From NCBI GenBank assembly GCA_902806095.1, contig CADCVF010000024.1:1-64000 (forward strand): 64,000 nucleotides of DNA, given 5' to 3'. Below the pieces are notes generated by a model. It was not told where the DNA came from and ran no database searches. It worked only from the letters and a program-made list of their open reading frames with translations. The translations under genes were made by a program, and so were the position numbers. The DNA comes from an uncultured Rubrobacteraceae bacterium. Its GTDB lineage: Bacteria; Actinomycetota; Rubrobacteria; Rubrobacterales; Rubrobacteraceae. Positions 3,544-34,976 of this stretch are shown here, in pieces (position 1 is the stretch's first letter; each line of letters begins with the position of its first letter).

Positions 3544-4698
3544 TTGCCAGTGTTCAGACTCAATAGAGCTTTCGGCGTCGGGCGAGGCGCGAAGGCATTC
3601 CTGAACATGCAGGGTGGCCTCACGCGGGGGGCGGTACCGAATTCCAAGCACTACGAGGAGCAGGCCGAGAGACTCGGGAAGATCGTAACGAAGCAGAGGA
3701 AGGCGCTGCGGAGGAAAGACCGGCAGATCGAGAAGCAGGCCGAGAGACTCGGGAAGATCGTAAAGAGGCAGAGGAAGGCGCTGCGGAGGAGAGACCGGCA
3801 GATCGAGGAGCAAGCCGCGGTGCTCGAGACCCTGCGGGAGAGACGGCAACACGAGATCAGGCTGAGGTCAGAACTCAAACAGCAGAGGTTGGAGGTCTAC
3901 CACCTGAAGAACGAACTTGACGCGATGAACGGGTTGGTAGAGACCGCCAGGGACGTTCCCTCGGTTGAGGAGGTATCGGATGAGCCGGATACAGGCACGC
4001 TACCCGACTTCGTCATCATAGGAGCGCAAAAGGGCGGGACATCCTTCCTCTACTATCTTCTCACGCGACACCCGCTCGTAGAGCCCGCAGCCCGTAAGGA
4101 ATTACACTTCTTCGACAATCCAAAACGTTTCGACGATGGCGCCGAGTGGTATCGGCGGTGCTTCCCGCAGCTGGGGTGGAAGGACGGACGGAGATCCATA
4201 ACCGGAGAGGCAACCCCCTCCTACCTGTTCTACCCACAAGTCGCACAGAGGATGGCTGGGTTGGTGCCGCAAGCACGGCTAATAGCGCTGCTCAGGAACC
4301 CGGTCGATAGGACTTACTCCCACTACCAGATGCAGGTGAAAAGGGGAACAGAGCAAGGCACCTTCGAAGAAGCCATAGAGCAGCAGCATGCCCCTTACGT
4401 GCCCAGGAGCATCTACGTGGACCAGCTCCTGCGCTGGTTTGAGTACTTTAGCAAAGAGCAGATGCTGATACTCAAGAGCGAGGACTTCTTCGAGCGCCCT
4501 GTCGAGACACTGAAGGTCGTCCTGAACTTCCTCGACCTGCCAGAGTGGCAGCCTGAGGCTTCGGAGCTTCGACAGAGACGACACACAGGCTCCTACAAGC
4601 AGAAGATGGACCCGTCCACCAGGCGGCGGCTGGAGGCCTACTTCGAGCCGCACAACAAGAGGCTTTATGAGTGTCTCGGCGTTGATTTCGGTTGGTAG
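3544..4698 (+). CDS. Sulfotransferase with N-terminal coiled coil
   Basis: A 384-residue protein. Residues about 36-125 are a highly charged Lys/Arg/Glu/Gln coiled coil that includes a 25-residue unit repeated twice. The catalytic domain starts near residue 150 with IIGAQKGGTSFLYYLL, continues with GEATPSYLFYP and has the 3'-phosphate loop LLRNPVDRTYSHYQM near residue 248. These motifs match the heparan-sulfate-type Sulfotransfer_1 family. The TTG start is chosen because GAAAGGG ends 6 bases upstream; GTG 3550 is possible. The coiled coil could mediate oligomerisation or recruitment to a polysaccharide assembly complex, which is inference. Confidence 0.85.
   Translation: MPVFRLNRAFGVGRGAKAFLNMQGGLTRGAVPNSKHYEEQAERLGKIVTKQRKALRRKDRQIEKQAERLGKIVKRQRKALRRRDRQIEEQAAVLETLRERRQHEIRLRSELKQQRLEVYHLKNELDAMNGLVETARDVPSVEEVSDEPDTGTLPDFVIIGAQKGGTSFLYYLLTRHPLVEPAARKELHFFDNPKRFDDGAEWYRRCFPQLGWKDGRRSITGEATPSYLFYPQVAQRMAGLVPQARLIALLRNPVDRTYSHYQMQVKRGTEQGTFEEAIEQQHAPYVPRSIYVDQLLRWFEYFSKEQMLILKSEDFFERPVETLKVVLNFLDLPEWQPEASELRQRRHTGSYKQKMDPSTRRRLEAYFEPHNKRLYECLGVDFGW
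3661..3810 (+). repeat. Two tandem 75-base units inside the coiled coil
   Basis: Units 3661-3735 and 3736-3810 differ at only a few bases, and a degenerate third unit begins at 3811. The unit is in frame and encodes 25 residues starting QAERLGKIV. Confidence 0.9.
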
Positions 4699-4799
4699 CG
4701 CCGTTCGGAGCGCTTCGTGGACGCGCTGACTTCAAGGCAACTGATGAAACGCTTCTCGCCACGAGGGTGCTTCTCGCTTCCGTTTCGTATTTGAGTACG

Positions 4800-25392: not shown

Positions 25393-25440
25393 GAGACGCC
25401 CCGGAAGCGTTTTGCGTAAAGCGGCATTACACACTGCGGA

Positions 25441-25446
25441 TATAAT
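25441..25446 (+). promoter_or_regulatory. Consensus -10 box of probable leaderless murT
   Basis: A perfect TATAAT ends 7 bases before ATG 25454. No Shine-Dalgarno sequence is present, so the mRNA probably begins at or beside the start codon. Confidence 0.55.
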
Positions 25447-25453
25447 CCACACC

Positions 25454-26866
25454 ATGAGTCCCTCGCCCGACCCACGTCTCTCCGCCGCGATACTGGCCGC
25501 CCGCTCGGCCCGGTTCGCGAGCCGGGCGCTGAAGACAGGAGGGGGCTCGACGGTGCCAGGGGTCGTGGCGCGCAGGGTGGACCCGAAGGTCCTCACCAAG
25601 CTCTCGCGGCGGCTGCGGCTCGGGTCGGCTGCGATAACGGGCACCAACGGCAAGACGACAACGACCAGGATGGTGTCGAAAGTTCTCCAGACCGCCGGTA
25701 TCCGTACCGTGAACAACTCGACGGGGGCGAACCTGATTACCGGCGTAACCGCGGCCCTCGTCTCGGACTCGGGGCTGGCCGGGACGCCTCTCTCGGAGAT
25801 GGGTCTCTTCGAGGTGGACGAAGCGAGCGTGCCTAAGGTGGCCGCAGAGGCGGAGATCGAGATCCTCGCGGTCCTGAATCTGTTCAGGGACCAGCTCGAC
25901 CGCTACGGGGAGCTCGCCTACACGGGCAAGGTCATAGCCTCAGCCTTCGGGGACCTTCCACAGGGCGGCGGGGTGGTCCTGAACGCCGACGATCCCCTCG
26001 TCGCGAGCCTCGGGCGGTCTGCCAGGAGACCCGTCTTCTACAGTGTGGACGAGCCTTCTCTGGACACCGGCCGTCTGCAGCACGTTGCTGACTCCAAGGA
26101 CTGTCCCGTCTGCGGAACGGCCCTCGTCTACGAGACCGTGTACATGGGGCACGTCGGCGTCTACGACTGCCGGCGCTGTGACTTCGCCCGCCCAAAACCG
26201 GCGTACCGCGCGAGCAGGGTGCGGCTCCATGGGGCCCAGGGATCAGAATTTCTGCTCTCGACCCCGAATGGCGAGACGGACGTAAAGATAGAGCTCCCCG
26301 GGCTCTACAACGTCTACAACGCCCTCGCCGCGTCCGCGGTGGCCGGGAAGGCCGGGGTCGGGCTCGCGGAGATCTCCCGTGGCCTCGGGGAGTTCGGGGG
26401 GGCTTTCGGGAGGGTCGAGCGGGTGAAGGCGGGCGACAGAGAAGCTTTTTTGCTGCTCATCAAGAACCCTGTCGGGTTCAATGAGATCCTGCGCACCTTC
26501 GTCACGGGCGTCGAAGCCCGCAACGTCCTGATCGCCATAAACGACAACGACGCCGACGGCCGCGACGTCTCGTGGCTCTGGGATGTAGACTTCGAGATGC
26601 TCGCCGACGCGAGGGAGGAGGGCAAGACGGATGCCGCCCCTTTCTTTGTCAGCGGCATCAGGGCCGAAGACATGGCCGTGCGCCTCAAGTACGCCGAGCT
26701 TCCCGTAGGCCCCGTCATCCCCGACCGCGAAGAAGCTATAAAGTTTGCGCTCGCCGCGACCCCGCCGGGCGAGACGCTCTACGTGCTACCGACGTACACG
26801 GCTATGCTCGAGATCCGGAAGACCCTGAGCGAGATGGGCTACACGCATCCGTTTTGGGAAGATTAG
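25454..26866 (+). CDS. murT: Lipid II isoglutaminyl synthase, MurT subunit
   Basis: A 470-residue Mur-ligase-type protein. The ATP site AITGTNGKTTTTRM lies near residue 60. A four-Cys zinc ribbon (CPVC and CRRC) is inserted in the central domain near residues 215-240, diagnostic of MurT. The C-terminal DUF1727 region has NDNDADGRDVSWLWDVDFE with the Asp that joins the GatD catalytic triad. MurT with GatD amidates the D-glutamate of peptidoglycan stem peptides. ATG 25454 fits the -10 box just upstream; TTG 25412 is a less likely start. gatD normally follows immediately; here it lies 7.3 kb away, displaced by an integrated element. Confidence 0.92.
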   Translation: MSPSPDPRLSAAILAARSARFASRALKTGGGSTVPGVVARRVDPKVLTKLSRRLRLGSAAITGTNGKTTTTRMVSKVLQTAGIRTVNNSTGANLITGVTAALVSDSGLAGTPLSEMGLFEVDEASVPKVAAEAEIEILAVLNLFRDQLDRYGELAYTGKVIASAFGDLPQGGGVVLNADDPLVASLGRSARRPVFYSVDEPSLDTGRLQHVADSKDCPVCGTALVYETVYMGHVGVYDCRRCDFARPKPAYRASRVRLHGAQGSEFLLSTPNGETDVKIELPGLYNVYNALAASAVAGKAGVGLAEISRGLGEFGGAFGRVERVKAGDREAFLLLIKNPVGFNEILRTFVTGVEARNVLIAINDNDADGRDVSWLWDVDFEMLADAREEGKTDAAPFFVSGIRAEDMAVRLKYAELPVGPVIPDREEAIKFALAATPPGETLYVLPTYTAMLEIRKTLSEMGYTHPFWED

Positions 26867-27005
26867 CATTTCAGCACGCCGCCTTACAGGCGGCTTGTCA
26901 GCACGGCGCTTCGCGCCTTGTCAGCATGTCAGCCAGGGCTTGTGATGCGGAGGCTGAAATGCTGACAAGGCGCCTGGCGGAGCCTGGCGACATGCTGACA
27001 TGCTA
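26863..27005. repeat. Dispersed intergenic inverted repeat, copy 4
   Basis: It begins in the murT stop (TTAGCATTTCAGCACG), has two hairpins (GCCGCCTTACAGGCGGC and GGCGCTTCGCGCC), each followed by TTGTCAGCA, and ends with an inverted unit 26953-27005 containing GCTGAAATGCTGACAAGGCG and ACATGCTGACATGCTA. It filled the murT-gatD gap before the element inserted. Confidence 0.85.
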
Positions 27006-27060
27006 GAACGACCGAAGGGAGGAGCGTTGAGGTTCGTCATTCGTCGGTGGACATAAGGAT
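27006..27060. other. attL with stranded gatD ribosome binding site and start
   Basis: CGAAGGGAGGAGCG followed by TTG 27027 and AGGTT is the former start of gatD. After AGGTT the sequence changes to element DNA, and the stranded frame stops after nine codons at 27054-27056. The element half contains CGTCG at 27042-27046 and CATAA at 27052-27056, the mirror of the motifs at attR. Confidence 0.72.
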
Positions 27061-27414
27061 CTCGCCTTTCGCGTTAGCCTCCGGCCCGACGACCGTTCGT
27101 CTCATCGCATGAGAGCGGCGCCCCCGATGCAGGCTTCTGCTACCGCCTTCTAGTGGGCCCACGCAAGCCGGGACAACGTCTAGCATAGCATTCCTAGTCC
27201 TGCTTTCCGGAGAGCGCATGTAGATCTGATGGTAGCGCTCTAGCCACGCACTTGGGTGAGCGGTCATGTTCTAACAGCAAATTCGAGCGCGACCGCTGCA
27301 CGGGCCGATTACATCCTCAGCGTAAAGAGGCTCCCCACAAGGTCGGAGTAGCCAGCCCCCGTAAACCCCGTACACTCACGGCGTTGCCTGCGAAGATAGA
27401 AGGAAGGTAAGCCG

Positions 27415-28085
27415 ATGAGCGAGCGAGCACCACTGCGGGTCGTCGCCACCCACGACTTCTGTTGTGCCTACCCGCCCTCGCCGACCTCCTACGGTTCGCT
27501 GCCGGGTGGCGAGGGTCTGAAGAATATGGTCGAGGCGCTAAGGGCGCAGGGACCCTTCGTCAGGGCGGACGCGGGCGACTTCGCGGCGCCTGGAGCGCTC
27601 GCCACCCTCTCGGGCGGCGAAGGGGGATTTGCGGCGGTGGCCGACCTAGGCATAGACGTGGGCGTGGTTGGCAACCACGAGTTCGAGTGGGGTGTGGAGC
27701 ACCTGCTCATGCACGCACCACAGACAGGCTTCCCGCTCTTGTGCGCCAACGCCCCCGAGGTCGAGCTGCCCCCGGCGGCGCTCGTCGAGACTGAAGGGGC
27801 CGTTGTGGGCTTCGTCGGGCTGACCTGCCCCGATCCGGAGGTCTACGTCTCCGCCCCCGATCTCGACCCCGACCTCGCCGGCGTGGCCATGAAGCACGCC
27901 GAGGAACTCCGGGCCTCGGGCGCGCAGTGGGTGGTGGCGCTCTTGCACGACGGAGTCGATTGGCGCTTCGGGCCGCGGGGCTACGAGGTACACCCTGAGC
28001 GCTTCTCGGAGGTTTGTAGGCCGTGGGCGAGGTCGGTGGACGCGATCTTCGCGAGCCACACCCTGGGTAGATGGATCGGAGGTCA
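27415..28085 (+). pseudogene. Metallophosphatase (5'-nucleotidase family), C-terminally truncated
   Basis: The first about 220 residues match a calcineurin-like metallophosphatase: RVVATHDF, RADAGDF, VGNHEFEWG, ALLHDG and FASHTLGRWIGG in the expected order of metal ligands. AAGGAAGG precedes ATG 27415. After about 28085 the similarity-like pattern stops; the frame then runs through unrelated sequence antisense to the next gene until 28776. The C-terminal substrate domain is missing. I treat it as a decayed gene. Note HTL where family members usually have HTH. Confidence 0.65.
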
Positions 28086-28233
28086 GATTCCAGGCTGTGA
28101 TCCGAGACGCGGAGTGTGCAATATTGAGCGTCACTCTCTAGACACGCGAGTTTCGCGAGGAGGCGGAGGCAGATCGTGGGGTGTAGCGCCACGCCATAAC
28201 AGACTTCGCCCTACCCGCCGACCCGATGCGTTC

Positions 28234-29055
28234 TCACGCACCAGCCTTGAGGCCCCATACTTGGAATGTGGGCGCCATGCTCATCAGCGTCCTGTCGTCA
28301 TCGGCGAGCCTGCCCAACTCGCCGACGATGCTATCCACCTCGGGATCGGATGCCAACCCCGCGCCAACTACTGCCTCCCTTATGTGCTCCATCGTAACCT
28401 GCGTAACCAGCTTGCCCTCGCCTTCGCGGAAAGTGGGCACGACGAGCCCTACGCGCACCTCTTCCAGCCCGGCCTCAAGCGCCATCCCCAGCAGGCGCAC
28501 CCCGATCGCCGCGTCCCCGCCCTCCTTCATCCTGGCAACGGCCTGGTAGAGCTCAACGAAGCGGTCGAAAGCGGCGTTGGACGGGTAGCAGACGTGACCG
28601 GGGAAGAAGACGTCTTCGAAGACCAAGCGCCCGCCCGGCCGCGCGGCCCGTACCATCGCCTCGACGGCCCGTTGCGGCCGAGGCAGGTGCGAGAGGAGGT
28701 AGCGGGCGAAGACCAGGTCGTAGGCCGACTCCTCTGCCAACTCCTCGGTGTCCAGTGTTCGGAAGGTCACCGGTAGACCTTGTTTTTCGGCCTCCTGACG
28801 CGCAAGGTGCAGGATCGACTGGTCGCGGTCGATTCCAACTGCGCTGCCTTCGGCCCCGACGAGCACGGCCATCTTCAGCGTCACATCCCCGCTGCCGCAC
28901 CCCACGTCCAGGCAACTCATCCCGGCTCGCAGGCCGGCCACCCTAAGCAGCGGCTCCGTGGTCGGCCATTTGACCCGGTTCAGGAGGTGCAGTCGTTCCG
29001 CTCCCGCTCGGCCTCCTCGCAGCACGTAACCCTCAGACCGCGACGAACGTCCCAT
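28234..29055 (-). CDS. Class I SAM-dependent methyltransferase
   Basis: A 273-residue protein with motif I LDVGCGSGDVTLKMA near residue 48, the acidic GIDRD after strand 2 and LVFARYLLSHLPRP near residue 115. The last third (VGLVVPTFREGEGKLV) is the substrate cap. ATG 29055 is chosen because GGAGAG lies 6 bases upstream; upstream extension has no family features. The substrate is unknown. It is cargo of the integrated element. Confidence 0.75.
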   Translation of the reverse strand: MGRSSRSEGYVLRGGRAGAERLHLLNRVKWPTTEPLLRVAGLRAGMSCLDVGCGSGDVTLKMAVLVGAEGSAVGIDRDQSILHLARQEAEKQGLPVTFRTLDTEELAEESAYDLVFARYLLSHLPRPQRAVEAMVRAARPGGRLVFEDVFFPGHVCYPSNAAFDRFVELYQAVARMKEGGDAAIGVRLLGMALEAGLEEVRVGLVVPTFREGEGKLVTQVTMEHIREAVVGAGLASDPEVDSIVGELGRLADDDRTLMSMAPTFQVWGLKAGA

Positions 29056-29283
29056 CCCCATGCTCTCCATTCTGTTGCCATCGTATGCCTTGCCCGGAGG
29101 CATGATGCCAGTCGGGCCGTTCCGGTGCACGTCCCCAGCACCGGACGTGGCGAGAGGATGCTCGATAGGCCCGCGAGGAGGACAGGTAGGCACTCACCCC
29201 GGACGCACGGCATCTGATGGAGTGGATCGTGGTGAGCTCTGGTAACCTCAGAGTTGGTCGCGGGACGAGCGGAGGAGGACAGT

Positions 29284-29601
29284 GTGGAGCCGCATGACCC
29301 TACTGACGATCAGCACAAAGCCATGCTCGGGGCTATCCACGAGCGCGAGGGCAGATGGGACGAGGTAGACCCCGACACCGAGGTCGCCCGCATAGGCGAG
29401 GACATGGGCTTGAGTGAAGACCAATCCTACGAGTTGTTCGGGCATCTCGTGGATGATGGCTTCGTCGATCCGGGTCGTGCTTATCGCGACGGGGGTGCGA
29501 TGCCGGGTAGCATCAGCCGGGTCGTCGGACGTGAAGAGAACATGACGGTCATAGGCGACGACGTTCGGCTCACTAGCAAAGGGCTAGCTGAGATCGAGTA
29601 G
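29284..29601 (+). CDS. Hypothetical protein, winged-helix-like
   Basis: A 105-residue acidic protein that I do not recognise. The pattern of helices followed by VRLTSKGLAEIE at the end resembles a winged-helix domain (beta wing and LTxKGxxxI ending). GTG 29284 has GGAGGAGG five bases upstream; an earlier in-frame GTG (29254) lacks one. It may be a small DNA-binding protein of the element. Confidence 0.55.
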   Translation: MEPHDPTDDQHKAMLGAIHEREGRWDEVDPDTEVARIGEDMGLSEDQSYELFGHLVDDGFVDPGRAYRDGGAMPGSISRVVGREENMTVIGDDVRLTSKGLAEIE

Positions 29602-29759
29602 TTCCACTCGAGGTTCGCAAAACGGAGGCGCCGGCAGAGGCTGTGGTCGCGCTACCGGTTAGCGCGCCAGAGCAGCTTGCTCTGTACCCACCTTCCGGCT
29701 GTAGGCGCATGGTAGCTGACCCGGCCGGGTAATATGAGGAGGACCGGAAAAGTGGCACT

Positions 29760-29963
29760 ATGGCCGAGCCCATAAACGTGAAGTGTCCGTCATGCGACCA
29801 GATCCTAGCAGCCGCCGACGAAGGCGGCCTGGTGAGCGCCCTACAGGCGCACCTCTACGAAGGGCACGCCCTAGAAACGCTGCCCGAAAGGATCCGGGAG
29901 AACGTCGCCGCTCAGTTGCGAGATTTCGACGGCTACAACGCCCGACCTATTAGCGGGGCATAA
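29760..29963 (+). CDS. Small zinc-binding protein (DUF1059-like)
   Basis: A 67-residue protein with VKCPSCDQ at residues 8-14 and LQAHLYEGHALE near residue 29, a CxxC...HxxxxH arrangement similar to DUF1059-type zinc motifs. No strong ribosome binding site directly upstream. Function unknown. Confidence 0.55.
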   Translation: MAEPINVKCPSCDQILAAADEGGLVSALQAHLYEGHALETLPERIRENVAAQLRDFDGYNARPISGA

Positions 29964-30598
29964 AAGCTATCAGCAGTTGCTCTGAGCTCATCGGCTCAGA
30001 CAGATGGCCTTGGGATGTCTCAATTCTCATCGTCTACCCGGTAGACAACTTCGACCTCAGTCGGGCCGTTACCGATCACCAATACCGCCTCTATGCTATC
30101 CCTTCCTTCGTAGAGCTCGTTGACGCGAAGTATCGCCTCGTCCCGGTCAGCGGCCCATCCTGCATAGTGCCTTTCGTGCGTTGCGGCACCGCCCGAAGAA
30201 TGGGTTCGTTGTAGGTGCTGTAAACGCTCAAGTTACTCCTATGGTTGGGTTGTGGCCAACAGTTCCTTCGGGGCCGCTGCCGGTGAGGCGAGACTGTAAA
30301 GAAACATTTGCTACAATTATGATAAGTGCTGGCGAGGTGGAAGTCAAGTGACCTAGACGTTGTGAGGGAACACCAGACCGATCCTCTCACGATGCTGCCG
30401 GAAGAGGCGCTGGCGGGGCCGCAAGTGGCCTGTAGTGTGGCAGCGGCGCTACCCTCTCCCTATGCTCAGCTAGCCCATCAGAACTTCCGTAAGTGAAGTC
30501 ATCTCTTTTCGACCGCGGTCACCGCTGCACGTCCTCGGTTATACTCGCTGTCCGTACAGCGGGGAACGTCGTTGTCGCCGACCACCGAAGGGCAGCGC
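29964..30598. other. Gap with a possible start-less gene remnant and an oxygenase promoter
   Basis: On the minus strand, 30226 down to 30020 reads as plausible protein (RDEAILRVNELYEGRDSIEA, VLVIGNG, VYRVDDEN then TGA), but no start codon precedes it, so it looks like a fragment. An AT-rich stretch lies at 30296-30330. TATACT at 30540-30545 is a probable -10 box for the downstream oxygenase gene. Nothing else recognised. Confidence 0.35.
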
Positions 30599-31375
30599 AT
30601 GTACCATCCCACCTTGTCGTCCGCGGTCACACGACGCATCTGGAGCAGCCCCGACGCCATCCTGCTGTTCTTCGCCGGTGGTGCGGCAGAGTTCGCGGCG
30701 ATCAAGGCGGTGGACTGGTTGTTCTTCACGGGGAGGCTGCCCGGTGCCCCGGTCGAGCGGTTCTTCGAGACGGTGAGGTTCGCCCAGAGCGTGTTCTTCG
30801 CCGACCCCGCCGGTGCGACTGACGCCATAGAGCGAATAAACCGTATCCACCGGCGCGTCGAGGATGCGCGCGGCGAAGAGATCCCCCAGTGGGCCTATCG
30901 GGATATGCTGTTCATCCTGATCGACTACGGCGAGCGGGCGCACGAGGTCGTGTTCGGACCCATGACGGAGGCTGAGCGCGCCTCTCACTTCGGTGTAGGA
31001 CTAGCGTTAGGGCGGACGATGCATTTGAGGGGCCTTCCCACCACCTACGCGGAGTATAAGGACCAGCGCCACCAGCAGCTCTTAGAGGACTACGCCCGCG
31101 GTCCGCTCACGGACGAACTCTATTCGAGCTACCGACGGGCTCTTGGCCCGTTGCGCTTTCGGCTTCTGCGTCTGGTACAAGCCAGCGTGCTACCGGAGGA
31201 GCTCAGAGACGTTCTCAGGCTCGAACCATACCCTCTCGTCGATGAGCTCCTGCGGCGCTACCGCTTCCTGCCTGGCGGTGGCAACAAGCTGCGCCCTTTC
31301 CACACCGTACTGTTGCCCGGCCGGTTCGCCAAACAGCTGCGCCAGTTGGAACGTGCCCCAGACGCTCCACAGTAG
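30599..31375 (+). CDS. Oxygenase MpaB family protein (DUF2236)
   Basis: A 258-residue protein of the MpaB/latex-clearing-like oxygenase family: AAEFAAIKAVDW, FAQSVFFADPAGATDAI and ERINRIHRRVED match the family N-terminal half, where conserved His and Arg residues bind heme. FILIDYGERAHEVVFG follows. No signal peptide. ATG 30599 has GAAGGG 6 bases upstream; TTG 30572 is an alternative. Family members oxidise terpenoid or polyisoprenoid chains; the substrate here is unknown. It is the best preserved metabolic gene of the element. Confidence 0.75.
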   Translation: MYHPTLSSAVTRRIWSSPDAILLFFAGGAAEFAAIKAVDWLFFTGRLPGAPVERFFETVRFAQSVFFADPAGATDAIERINRIHRRVEDARGEEIPQWAYRDMLFILIDYGERAHEVVFGPMTEAERASHFGVGLALGRTMHLRGLPTTYAEYKDQRHQQLLEDYARGPLTDELYSSYRRALGPLRFRLLRLVQASVLPEELRDVLRLEPYPLVDELLRRYRFLPGGGNKLRPFHTVLLPGRFAKQLRQLERAPDAPQ

Positions 31376-31510
31376 TTTCGATTCTAGGGCCAGCTCTCGG
31401 CCGTGCGCGGGGGAGGCGCCGGCGGCGGATTGTGTTAGGTAGCGGAACTGGGTTCGTCGAGCTCGGTCGCCTGTCTGACGGGGAGCGAATAGCAGAGCGT
31501 CCCGCCCTCT

Positions 31511-31743
31511 CTACGGAGAGGTGCCCGCCTCCGGCCAACTCCGAGAGCCCCGTTTGTTGGCTTCTTGCAAAGCGCTGGCGAGGAGCGCGACAGCGGGGAT
31601 CATCAGGTCGAAGGAGACCACCAGCGTGCCTGGCGGGGCAAGGATGCCGAAAACGAACGCGCCGAAGACGAACACGAGGCCCAGGCTCACCTTGACATAG
31701 TCGAGGCCCTCCGGTTCCGGCTCTGGCGCTCGATGTCACCCAA
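31511..31743 (-). pseudogene. Two-helix membrane protein with a one-base deletion
   Basis: TTG 31743 has GGAGGAGAG directly upstream and starts MGDIERQ. One base later than expected the frame shifts; in the +1 frame the protein continues EPEPEGLDYVKVSLGLVF with two hydrophobic helices and ends at TAG 31511. Restoring one G in CGCCAGAGCC gives a 77-residue protein. The total of 233 bases is one short of 78 codons. Confidence 0.5.
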
Positions 31744-32178
31744 TTCTCTCCTCCACGGCCATGCTCTAGTTCTCTTCTACGTTGCCGAACATTCTAGCTC
31801 AACCGTTCGAAGGTGGCGGAGCTCTCGCGCGAGCGGCGCGGTTCGCGGGGACCGAGGGCCCGTACAAGCGGCATGGACGCTAACGCCAGCAGCACCGCCG
31901 ACGGAAGCGCCGGCGGGGGCGGACCGTTACCGCCTTCTCGTGGGGAGGGTGCCGTATCCCCACCTACCTAAGGGCTGTCACAACATCTTCTTGTGCTCAA
32001 TGAAGATGCGTTCCCACTAGCAGGAAAAGACCGCCAATGCACTGCTCAGGTGGGGTTGGCATCCTCAGAGGAAAGCTCGTCGTTCTGCAAACTCTGCTCC
32101 TCGGCCTCCAGGCGGAGTACGGGCATACCGCCGCAGCCCGCGAGCCGGATCAGCAAGAACACCCGCATCAGGGAATGT
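31744..32178. other. Non-coding stretch inside the element
   Basis: About 435 bases with no supported gene on either strand. The frame that enters from 31993 has no family-like composition until residue M at 32179. Confidence 0.4.
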
Positions 32179-32373
32179 ATGTGCGGTTGTGGCCGTGCTA
32201 CGACGGGTCTTTTCGCTCAGGGACACGATATGCGGAAGTTTCAGGTGGCTCGCGAGCACCTGACGGAAGGCCGAGAGCTCACCGAGGAACAGCGCAAGTA
32301 CCTGGAGGATTCCGGCAAGATGGAGCGCGTGAGGGCACGTATCGCGGAGGGGGGAGGGCAAACGCCGGGGTAA
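32179..32373 (+). CDS. Small CGCG...GHD motif protein, mobile-element associated
   Basis: A 64-residue protein starting MCGCGRATTGLFAQGHDMRK, followed by a charged helical region. The Cys-x-Cys-Gly...Phe-x-x-GHD pattern recalls short zinc-finger-like proteins found in phages and integrative elements. AGGGA lies close upstream of the ATG. It ends 49 bases before the recombinase gene and may be part of the same unit. Function unknown. Confidence 0.55.
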   Translation: MCGCGRATTGLFAQGHDMRKFQVAREHLTEGRELTEEQRKYLEDSGKMERVRARIAEGGGQTPG

Positions 32374-32422
32374 GGAGCAGCGGAAGACCAAGCGCGTCGC
32401 CAAGAGGAGAGGAGCGAAGTAA

Positions 32423-34233
32423 ATGACGTCCATGAAGACTACCGTCGCCTACTGCCGGGTTTCCACGGACGAGCAGGCCCGCTCGGGCTATTCCATCGCC
32501 GACCAAGAGGAGGCGCTGCGAGCCTGGTGCACCGATAATCAGCACGAGCTCTTGGAAGTCGTGAAGGACGAGGGTCACTCGGGAGCGTACCTCGAAAGGC
32601 CCGGTCTGGATCGGGTACGCGACCTCGTGGAGGAAGGCGGGGTCTCGGTGGTCGTCGCCCAGGACGCCGACCGTATCACCCGCGAAGCACACCACCGGAT
32701 GCTCCTGCACGACGAGTTTGAGCGACGCGGTTGCAAGCTAATAGCTCTCGATGACTGGGGCGACGACAGCCACGAAGGACAGCTACTAAAGTTTATGAAG
32801 GGCTGGGTTTCGAAGGGTGAGCGCCTCAAAATCGCCTAGCGCACGCGCAGGGGGAGGCGGCAGAAGACCAAGCAGGGCTACCTCGTCGCTCCCTCGACTG
32901 TCCCTTTTGGCTTCAAGCTCAACGGGACTAGGGACGGATACATTGTGGACGAGGACCAGATGGCTGTCGTTCGGAGAATATTCCAGTTAGTCGCAGATGC
33001 TGCGAGCTTACACGGGGTCAAGCGCGTCCTTGAGAGGGAGGGGTGCCTTCGCCGTCCGGCGGCCAAGCCTGGAGTCGCTCGACCTTGCGCGTGTCCGTGA
33101 AGCGCGACGCCTATTTCCCGCACACCTGCTCCAAAGTCGCAGTGCTCGTGGCACCCGGCGTCGCCGAGCGGCTGGACCCGGAGCGAAGCTACGGCGTCTC
33201 GTGGGCGTCTCGCCACGACTGGAAGTTTCTGGGCCGCGAACGTCGCCCCGACGGGCGGTACCGCGACCGCCGCAAGCGCGGCGAGAAGCCTCGCGAGGAG
33301 TGGCTGGCACTCCCGACGCCCGACGCCGGCGTCCCGAGGGAGGTCGCCGAAAGGGCGCGCCGGAACGTGGAGCTCCGGGTCAGCCCGCATAAGAAGAACC
33401 GGAGATTCTGGGAGCTCTCGGGCGGAGTGCTTCGGTGCGCCGAGTGTGGGCGCGCCATGGTAGACCACACGGTCGCCCCGAAAGGGCGCAAGACTCATTA
33501 CTACTACGTGTGCCCCAAAAAGGTCGAGGAGGAACGGCGGTCGGCCTGCCCGAACCGCAACCACCGCGCTGGTGAGCTTGAGGGGCGGGTGCGCGACTTC
33601 GCCCTGCGACTCATCGAGAATCCCGACACCTTGCGCGAGCAGATCGAGCAGCAGGCGAGGGCCGAAAGAGAGTCCAAGCCGTGGCTGCGCGACGCGAGGG
33701 AGGCGGCAAGCGCTCGGGAGCGCCTCGCCAAGCTCGAAATAATGGAGGACAACTACCGCGACCAGCAGGCCGAGGGGCTCATCACGATGGCGAAGCTCTG
33801 CGAGAAGCTCGACGGGGTGCGCGAAGAGCGCGAGGGCCTGCAAGTGCGGCTCGCTATGCTCGCGGACGGGGAGAGCCGCCTGCGCGAGCTTGAGGAGCTT
33901 CCCCTGTTAGTCGAGGAGTACCTAAAGGACTTGCCGTACCTCGTGGACCGGATGCCGGTCATTCGTGAGTACGAGACCATAGGCGCAGAGCGCACCCCCG
34001 ACAACCCACTCGGGATCTACATGCTCACCCCCGAGAGGATCCGGCTCCTCCCCGAGGAAGAGGTCGCTAAGAGGAGGCGGGCCGCAGAGTCCGCGAGGGA
34101 CGCGAGGTTCCGGGAGCTTTATGCTATGCTCGGGCTTCGGGCGGCTATCCACGCCGATGGCACCCTGGATATAGCGGTGGGGGCCACCGGCGAAGCTACG
34201 AAGGGAGTTATGCCGTGCGACGGCTCAGGTTAA
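32423..34233 (+). pseudogene. Large serine recombinase (integrase), disrupted twice
   Basis: The N-terminal resolvase domain has the catalytic Ser in AYCRVSTDEQARSG near residue 14. A TAG at 32837-32839 interrupts it where related proteins read ERLKIAERTRRGRRQ. The frame continues through the recombinase domain (YLVAPSTVPFGFKLNG) until about 33040, where one G appears to be missing in a GGGG run; the +1 frame then gives VPSPSGGQAWSRSTLR, the zinc ribbon LRCAECGRAM...YYVCPKKV and a long coiled coil. The reading frame ends at TAA 34231-34233, of which two bases come from gatD. GGAG lies 8 bases before ATG 32423. Confidence 0.85.
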
Positions 34234-34260
34234 CCATCCACCACCTCTACGCCGACATGA
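34196..34260. other. attR fused to gatD
   Basis: The element half carries TTATG at 34208-34212 and CGACG at 34218-34222, then the core AGGTT at 34227-34231; gatD sequence AACCATCCACCACC follows. The spacing of TTATG and CGACG from the core centre equals that of their mirror images at attL. Confidence 0.72.
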
Positions 34261-34976
34261 TGAACCTCTACGGCGACAGGGGAAACGTAATCTCCATCAA
34301 GAAACGTTGCGAGTGGCGCGGCATTCCCGTGCAGGTCGTCGACGTTGGCCTCCAAGAGAGGATAAGGCCGACAGGCTGCGACCTCTTCCTCTTCGGTGGC
34401 GGCCAGGACAGGGAACAAGCACTGCTCGCAGAAGACCTCTCGGGCTCGAAGGGCGCGGACCTGAGGGCTATCGTGGAGGACGGCGGCGTGGTCCTCGGGG
34501 TGTGCGGCGGCCACCAGCTCATGGGCCACTCATACGAGACGCCCGAGGGCGAGGAGCTCCCCGGCGTCGGCATCTTCGACCTGCATACCGAGCCCAGGAA
34601 GGCTGACGAGGAGCGCCTGATCGGGAACGTGCTTGTCCGCGTCTTGGCCCCTGAGACCGGCGAGACGCACGAGATCGTCGGCTTCGAGAATCATGGCGGT
34701 CGCACCTACCTCGGTGAAGACGTGAAGCCCCTCGGCGAGGTCGTTGTAGGTTACGGCAACAACGGTAAAGACGGTACTGAGGGTGCACGCAGGCTCAACG
34801 CCTACGGCACCTACCTGCACGGCTCCTTGCTCCCCAAGAACCCCTGGCTCACAGACCAGCTAATCCTGAACGCCCTGCGTCGTGTAGACGAAAGCTTCGA
34901 GCTCGAACCCCTGGACGATACGATGGAGGGCATCGCTTTCTCGTCGGTGGCCGGCCGCGTGGCCGGCAGGCGGTAG
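34215..34976 (+). CDS. gatD: Lipid II isoglutaminyl synthase, GatD amidotransferase subunit
   Basis: A 253-residue class I glutamine amidotransferase. The nucleophile is Cys in GVCGGHQLMGHSYE near residue 97, and the catalytic His lies in TYLHGSLLPKN near residue 200. It supplies ammonia to MurT for amidation of D-Glu in the peptidoglycan stem. The start is GTG 34215 with AAGGGAG 8 bases upstream, both contributed by the integrated element; the first codons MRRLRL are therefore chimeric and the native start was probably TTG-AGG-TTA (MRL). It overlaps the recombinase end by 19 bases. It must now be transcribed from inside the element rather than from murT. Confidence 0.92.
   Translation: MRRLRLTIHHLYADMMNLYGDRGNVISIKKRCEWRGIPVQVVDVGLQERIRPTGCDLFLFGGGQDREQALLAEDLSGSKGADLRAIVEDGGVVLGVCGGHQLMGHSYETPEGEELPGVGIFDLHTEPRKADEERLIGNVLVRVLAPETGETHEIVGFENHGGRTYLGEDVKPLGEVVVGYGNNGKDGTEGARRLNAYGTYLHGSLLPKNPWLTDQLILNALRRVDESFELEPLDDTMEGIAFSSVAGRVAGRR

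Follow-up and report, generated by a model that had tools for sequence, protein, structure and literature searches.

The 64,000-nucleotide stretch of Rubrobacteraceae DNA analysed here (the window) contains, between the cell-wall genes murT and gatD, an integrated element of 7,197 bp (27035–34231, with ends placed to about ±8 bp) that is absent in relatives. This element very probably belongs to a family encoding a large serine recombinase (LSR) and integrated within codons 2–5 of gatD, rebuilding the start of that gene. An earlier note on this DNA, made from the letters alone, had proposed that a 7.2 kb integrated element splits the murT–gatD pair, and empty relatives together with matching left and right junctions now bear this out. 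A feature that it missed is that the right end of the element appears to supply a new ribosome-binding site (RBS) and start codon inside the last codons of the recombinase gene. Coordinates are those of the window, and features lie on the forward strand unless stated otherwise.

Insertion, ends and replacement leader

In the window, murT (25412–26866, stop included), assigned from its open reading frame (ORF) and orthologues as the gene for the Mur ligase-like subunit of lipid II isoglutaminyl synthase, is separated by 7.3 kb from gatD (34215–34976; GATase_3, 132 bits), the former ending at 26866 and the latter starting with GTG at 34215. We compared this locus across a family sample of 39 genomes from 13 genera of Rubrobacteraceae, including that of the window (G000); murT orthologues are present in 35 of them. 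The closest relative, G001, whose MurT and GatD are both 93% identical to those of the window, is empty. Because its two genes are only 242 bp apart and its gatD has the native start ATGCTCACCATCCACC (MLTIHH), the 7,197-bp insert is confirmed as real by sequence comparison. Most murT–gatD pairs in the family, including those of the empty relatives, lie 12–450 bp apart, and GatD of the empty relatives begins M(K)LTIHH, in place of which the window has MRRLRLTIHH; the empty site predicted by the earlier note is of this kind. None of the relatives carries the same 7 kb, and no empty one has a native MRRLRLTIHH N-terminus. The window is free of N's, and comparable murT–gatD splits occur in independent assemblies. 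The G+C content is 63.7% in the element and 63.4% in the window. In two near-complete genomes, G018 and G019, murT lies more than 1 Mb from gatD on the same contig.

The murT side of the insert retains the remains of the native gatD start. The native murT–gatD spacer (26867–27013), a REP (repetitive extragenic palindromic)-like repeat, aligns with the spacer of G001 at a score of 105, compared with 26 ± 8.5 for shuffles; the repeat motif GCTGAAATGCTGAC (≤1 mismatch) occurs at 493 sites in the 3.8-Mb genome and its reversed control at 1. It is followed by the left attachment side (attL, 27015–27041), which comprises the displaced native RBS (27015–27022), a TTG start (27027–27029) and a stub of gatD codons 2–5. 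This RBS, CGACCGAAGGGAGG, is identical in the empty genomes G004, G005, G008 and G017, and that of G001 differs by one change. The gatD-start stub beside murT reads TTGAGGTTCGTCATT in the window, GTGGGGCTTGTCATC in G003 and ATGAAGCTCACCA in G030. In all three it leads into a shared sequence of the form CGTCnnnGGnCATAASG, and the left junctions are alike (CGTCATTCGTCGGTGGACATAAGG, TGTCATCCGTCGCGGGGCATAACG and CACCACCCGTCTTCGGGCATAACG, respectively). The left end of the element (27035–27058), common to G003 and G030, would in a free form encode an alternative C-terminus of the LSR. The genomes G033 and G036 have kept stubs (GTGAAACTCACCATCC and ATGAATCTCGCTATCC, respectively) that are not followed by the shared sequence.

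At the right end, about a dozen genomes share the arrangement ACGAAGGGAGTTATGCC-NTG-3 codons, followed by gatD from codon 2 onward; a DNA alignment of right ends in which one row (L074) was misplaced is disregarded here. In the window, the core AGGTT of the right attachment site (attR, 34227–34231) matches attL in register, and the left and right registers both yield 7,197 bp, which is also the spacing of the two AGGTT copies (27030–27034 and 34227–34231). The earlier note had pointed to AGGTT at both boundaries. The repeat is indeed present and its coordinates agree with the simplest crossover, but it is weak evidence by itself, as pairs of random 30-bp windows from this sequence have some common 5-mer in 53% of cases. 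It was dropped as sole proof of the ends for this reason; on alignment, attL and attR match in codon register over a longer stretch, of which AGGTT forms just one portion. The crossover would lie within gatD codons 2–5, at a point that is ambiguous and most simply placed at TT/CT of codon 3. Codon 2, named previously as the target, is thus right as regards the 5' end of gatD but too precise.

The replacement gatD leader, ACGAAGGGAGTTATGCC plus GTG (34198–34217), lies within the last LSR codons, and its RBS and GTG would now start gatD as MRRLRLTIHH. The leader 18-mer (≤2 mismatches) is found in six family genomes, in each immediately 5' of gatD and nowhere else. Across five LSR-bearing loci, third-position identity is 92% in the leader, which amounts to five codons only, and 60% in the preceding ten codons. 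One could argue that gatD is translated from an internal or other start and that this leader is merely a conserved arm of the attachment site of the free element (attP). LSR attachment sites are conserved in any case, and RBS and spacing were assessed by eye. However, every occupied locus has an in-frame NTG/ATG at the element end with an AAGG-type sequence upstream, and in G007 the leader is exact although the LSR has been almost entirely lost, which makes such a start elsewhere unlikely. The simplest reading of these sequences is that the leader is retained because gatD needs it.

In some 30 loci, no other LSR of the Rubrobacteraceae was seen to supply a leader, except possibly a remnant in G003 (contig C83; L118). 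The stop of this LSR remnant, which matches the gatD clade at 49–64%, overlaps with the start of a GNAT-like gene whose RBS is GGGGAGGAG; this gene may be a further target provided with a replacement leader.

Recombinase and free form

The earlier note had placed a serine recombinase in an element within the gatD 5' end, and an LSR gene is found there in three parts. The first (32423–32839) holds the resolvase catalytic domain (YCRVST; PF00239, E = 2.8e-26), matches the phrog_95 integrase family and the TP901-1 integrase (3bvp, E = 6.6e-11), and ends at an in-frame TAG (32837–32839). The second (32840–33085) continues in the same frame past this stop and contains a putative recombinase domain (PF07508, 14 bits against a cut-off of 21.1, in a frame-broken stretch) before a frameshift that falls between about 33060 and 33103. 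The third (33103–34233) comprises the zinc ribbon (PF13408, E = 8.5e-11, above cut-off), the coiled coil and the C-terminus, and its stop TAA (34231–34233) arises across the attachment core. Read through both lesions, the protein aligns over ~570 amino acids with intact LSRs of relatives at 35–37% identity. The two lesions mark the LSR of the window as a pseudogene.

A search for gatD-adjacent serine recombinases elsewhere, suggested by the earlier note, was productive. LSR remnants that are 60–69% identical to the LSR of the window lie directly 5' of gatD in G029, G030, G032 and G035; a weaker remnant lies near gatD in G036, with which G034 has ~130 bp of upstream sequence in common. All other gatD-adjacent LSR copies found are likewise broken or truncated. 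Because dN/dS is 0.24–0.26 (window versus G035 and G032) at a dS similar to that of gatD, the sequences indicate selection on the LSR up to recent times. The records with the same recombinase come from Rubrobacter sp. and uncultured Rubrobacteraceae metagenome-assembled genomes (MAGs), and as far as found the LSR family is restricted to Rubrobacteraceae.

A trace of the free form may be preserved in G031, whose gatD is empty. On its contig C79, a right end passes straight into a left end (AACGGAGTTACGCCATGGAACGAACCACGGACC-TCATCCGTCGCCGGGCATAAC), and the reading frame of the LSR stays open through the joint (KNGVTPWNEPRTSSVAGHNTGRWKPGLVVRATLSPSGDVRALEVIAA), as expected of attP. The joint is a relic and the search pattern also matched one reversed control; its weight derives from the two halves adjoining each other in a common frame. 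In addition, the left ends on the murT side read alike in the LSR frame (SSFVGGHK, LSSVAGHN and SPPVFGHN), and contig C120 of G032 carries a matching tail. Because the joint is in frame, the left ends are similar and such a tail exists, attP probably lies within the LSR gene, which would be deprived of this C-terminus upon integration. Free circles of the element may exist.

Recurrence across Rubrobacteraceae

About 12 gatD genes in the 39 genomes carry the shared right end or remnants of it, several with LSR sequence upstream. Diverged leaders precede gatD in G020, G028, G033, G034 and G036, with G038 as the least convincing case. These similarities support a single family of gatD-targeting elements that recurs in several Rubrobacteraceae genera. 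Occupied and empty states alternate on a tree of MurT+GatD. Parsimony gives 9 changes, of which at least 6 are forced by well-supported branches, and the state differs within sister pairs such as G000/G001, G032/G037 and two alleles of G035. The latter is a MAG with 6% estimated contamination that contains gatD in both states; over 195 codons, the occupied allele is 96.6% identical to the empty one. These alleles (L076 and L080, on contigs C174 and C75, respectively) are probably two strains in one bin.

Since such change counts do not separate gain from loss and dS is near saturation, we judged gain and loss by the types of junction. Two types of spacer are found at attL: the REP-spacer in G000 and G030, and a tight 12-bp arrangement in G003, G033 and G036 that is also present in other, empty genomes. 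In the window and G030, attL resembles empty relatives in having the spacer together with an undamaged native RBS and start codon. As the left junctions retain two different ancestral spacers, the insertions in G000 and G003, and those in G030 and G033/G036, struck different ancestral sites and are independent of each other, and insertion recurred.

The pattern could instead reflect one ancient insertion in the family, followed by vertical descent and decay, precise loss having occurred repeatedly in those lineages whose sites now appear empty. The state changes would allow this, and the LSR dS of the window versus G032/G035 (0.88) comes close to the gatD dS (0.92–0.95), as vertical descent would predict. 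However, a dS of ~0.9 is nearly saturated and weak evidence for such descent, and a dN/dS of about 0.25 is unlike that of an old pseudogene. Moreover, behind a G001-like spacer, the attL of the window still has its native RBS and start intact, whereas the occupied outgroup G003 has the tight 12-bp type; a stub that had been dead since the family ancestor would neither keep nor acquire an intact RBS, a start and the local spacer. We regard a single ancient insertion as decidedly improbable. Ordinary gene accretion between murT and gatD, by rearrangement or REP-mediated insertion and with an incidental recombinase, deserves hardly any credence. The loci do differ in cargo, some gaps have no recognisable LSR and the spacer is a REP-like repeat, but many genomes share the LSR 3' end and leader next to gatD, the left ends are alike and the two ends are joined elsewhere.

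Several observations nevertheless weigh against recurrent integration by an LSR-bearing element. G003 has the left end only, and G020, G028, G033, G034 and G038 show little beyond a leader, which is degraded in some. An intact LSR of the gatD clade was not found among relatives that are mostly fragmented MAGs, and neither an excised circle nor an empty site within a strain has read support. The junction argument carries the caveat that the window spacer is a REP-like repeat occurring hundreds of times, and an old insertion plus precise loss could explain part of the pattern.

Two of these loci show further peculiarities. In G003 (L117; estimated 94% complete), gatD was not found; murT and the left end of the element are present, and the contig ends 2.2 kb further on. 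In G020, the 5-kb murT–gatD gap contains, on the minus strand of contig C2 (L114:2850–3030; oriented 4574–4788), a second leader and a gatD stub of residues 5–53, and the same stretch also holds a 35-bp piece resembling the 3' end of murT, as if there had been two insertion rounds or a duplication.

Proposed mechanism, related systems and cargo

We propose that the attP of a site-specific integrative element of the LSR family recombined with the host site (attB) at gatD codons 2–5, in a reaction that its own LSR would have catalysed. The native RBS of gatD, along with its start and first codons, would thereby be displaced to the murT side as a dead stub. The right end, which is the 3' end of the LSR gene, would supply the RBS GAAGGGAG, an in-frame GTG/TTG/ATG and three or four codons, such that a GatD whose N-terminus is slightly extended would be made from the new leader. 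Integration would also exchange the C-terminus of the LSR for a short one stopping at the attachment core, a swap that may matter. Later, the LSR would have gained its stop and frameshift, the element would have become fixed, and selection on gatD would maintain the right-end leader. As a more speculative extension, which we hold only tentatively, the recombinase and target genes might be built to overlap, a single crossover then coupling the state of the element, recombinase activity and peptidoglycan amidation.

To limit damage, integrating elements usually insert into tRNAs or the 3' ends of genes. The gatD gene is known to be essential in several other bacteria, namely other Gram-positives, and for these the earlier note's description of it as essential holds. 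The family described here thus targets the 5' end of a mid-operon gene that is essential elsewhere, and would carry its own RBS and start in the recombinase gene. Because the leader outlives the recombinase, mobile DNA would in several lineages have turned into a permanent regulatory region for a cell-wall gene. Codons 2–5 of gatD also represent a naturally recurring LSR target and offer a testable case of an integrase C-terminus swap.

Known integrators at gene 5' ends include the satellite prophage SpyCI in mutL and integrative and conjugative elements (ICEs) in ftsK, rbgA and ebfC (PMC4701971). Like the gatD element, SpyCI and these streptococcal ICEs use a conserved 5' end, leave the protein nearly unchanged and, in some cases, replace the upstream region; here, in contrast, GatD gains residues, the RBS and start lie inside the recombinase gene, and no conjugation genes were recognised. 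The HK022 prophage sits between torS and torT in E. coli and replaces the torS promoter (PMC6814406). It likewise cuts a host gene off from the native promoter and provides an upstream control sequence, but its site is upstream of torS and what it contributes is a promoter, whereas the gatD element replaces the translation start and first codons in mid-operon. In ICEs in rumA and in phage Mx8, the attachment site is within the integrase gene and integration alters the integrase C-terminus (PMC4701971), as proposed here; the difference is that the new LSR 3' end of the present element also acts as the target gene's leader.

The TP901-1, phiC31 and Bxb1 recombinases and the LSRs of Durrant et al. 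share with the present one the resolvase domain, the recombinase domain (putative here), the zinc ribbon, the coiled coil and the short core. According to the main text of Durrant et al. (PMC10083194), LSRs favouring one target gene are common, and many are predicted to target one gene, as here; the word 'amidotransferase' is absent from that main text. The present elements differ from known LSR elements in their gatD 5' target, in the start within the LSR gene, in the decay of all copies and in having no recognised phage genes. No literature report of gatD or murT as an integration site was found, in keeping with the earlier remark that no described element is known to target codon 2 of gatD, but the insert is not unique, since its family occurs in several genera. 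As far as found, what is new is gatD as a target, the exchange of its RBS, start and first codons for ones that overlap the last LSR codons, and the family-wide recurrence.

The remainder of the element holds a truncated metallophosphatase/5'-nucleotidase-like fragment (27415–28062; Metallophos E = 0.0082, below cut-off; phrog_19584 E = 1.1e-13), a class I methyltransferase (28234–29193, reverse strand; Methyltransf_31 E = 2.5e-22) for which the eight other genomes of the genus gave no match at E ≤ 1e-30, a small ORF (29254–29601; no Pfam match), a DUF1059-like small protein (29760–29963; DUF1059 E = 0.0021, below cut-off) and an MpaB/Lcp-type oxygenase domain protein (30599–31375; MPAB_Lcp_cat E = 9.6e-15). 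Other occupied loci carry different cargo. No relaxase, coupling protein or conjugation genes were found among the main cargo ORFs with Pfam and PHROGs, and no phage structural genes with PHROGs, where the matches were to integrase, methyltransferase and one family of unknown function. A phage or plasmid origin was considered and rejected, the LSR having no match in phage records or IMG/VR; the plasmid collection lay outside this search. Directly 5' of the LSR, an ORF of 64 amino acids that contains Cys (32179–32373; no family above cut-off) is conserved upstream of the LSR of G030, with 56% identity over 54 amino acids (E about 1e-15), and is a candidate accessory protein or recombination directionality factor (RDF).
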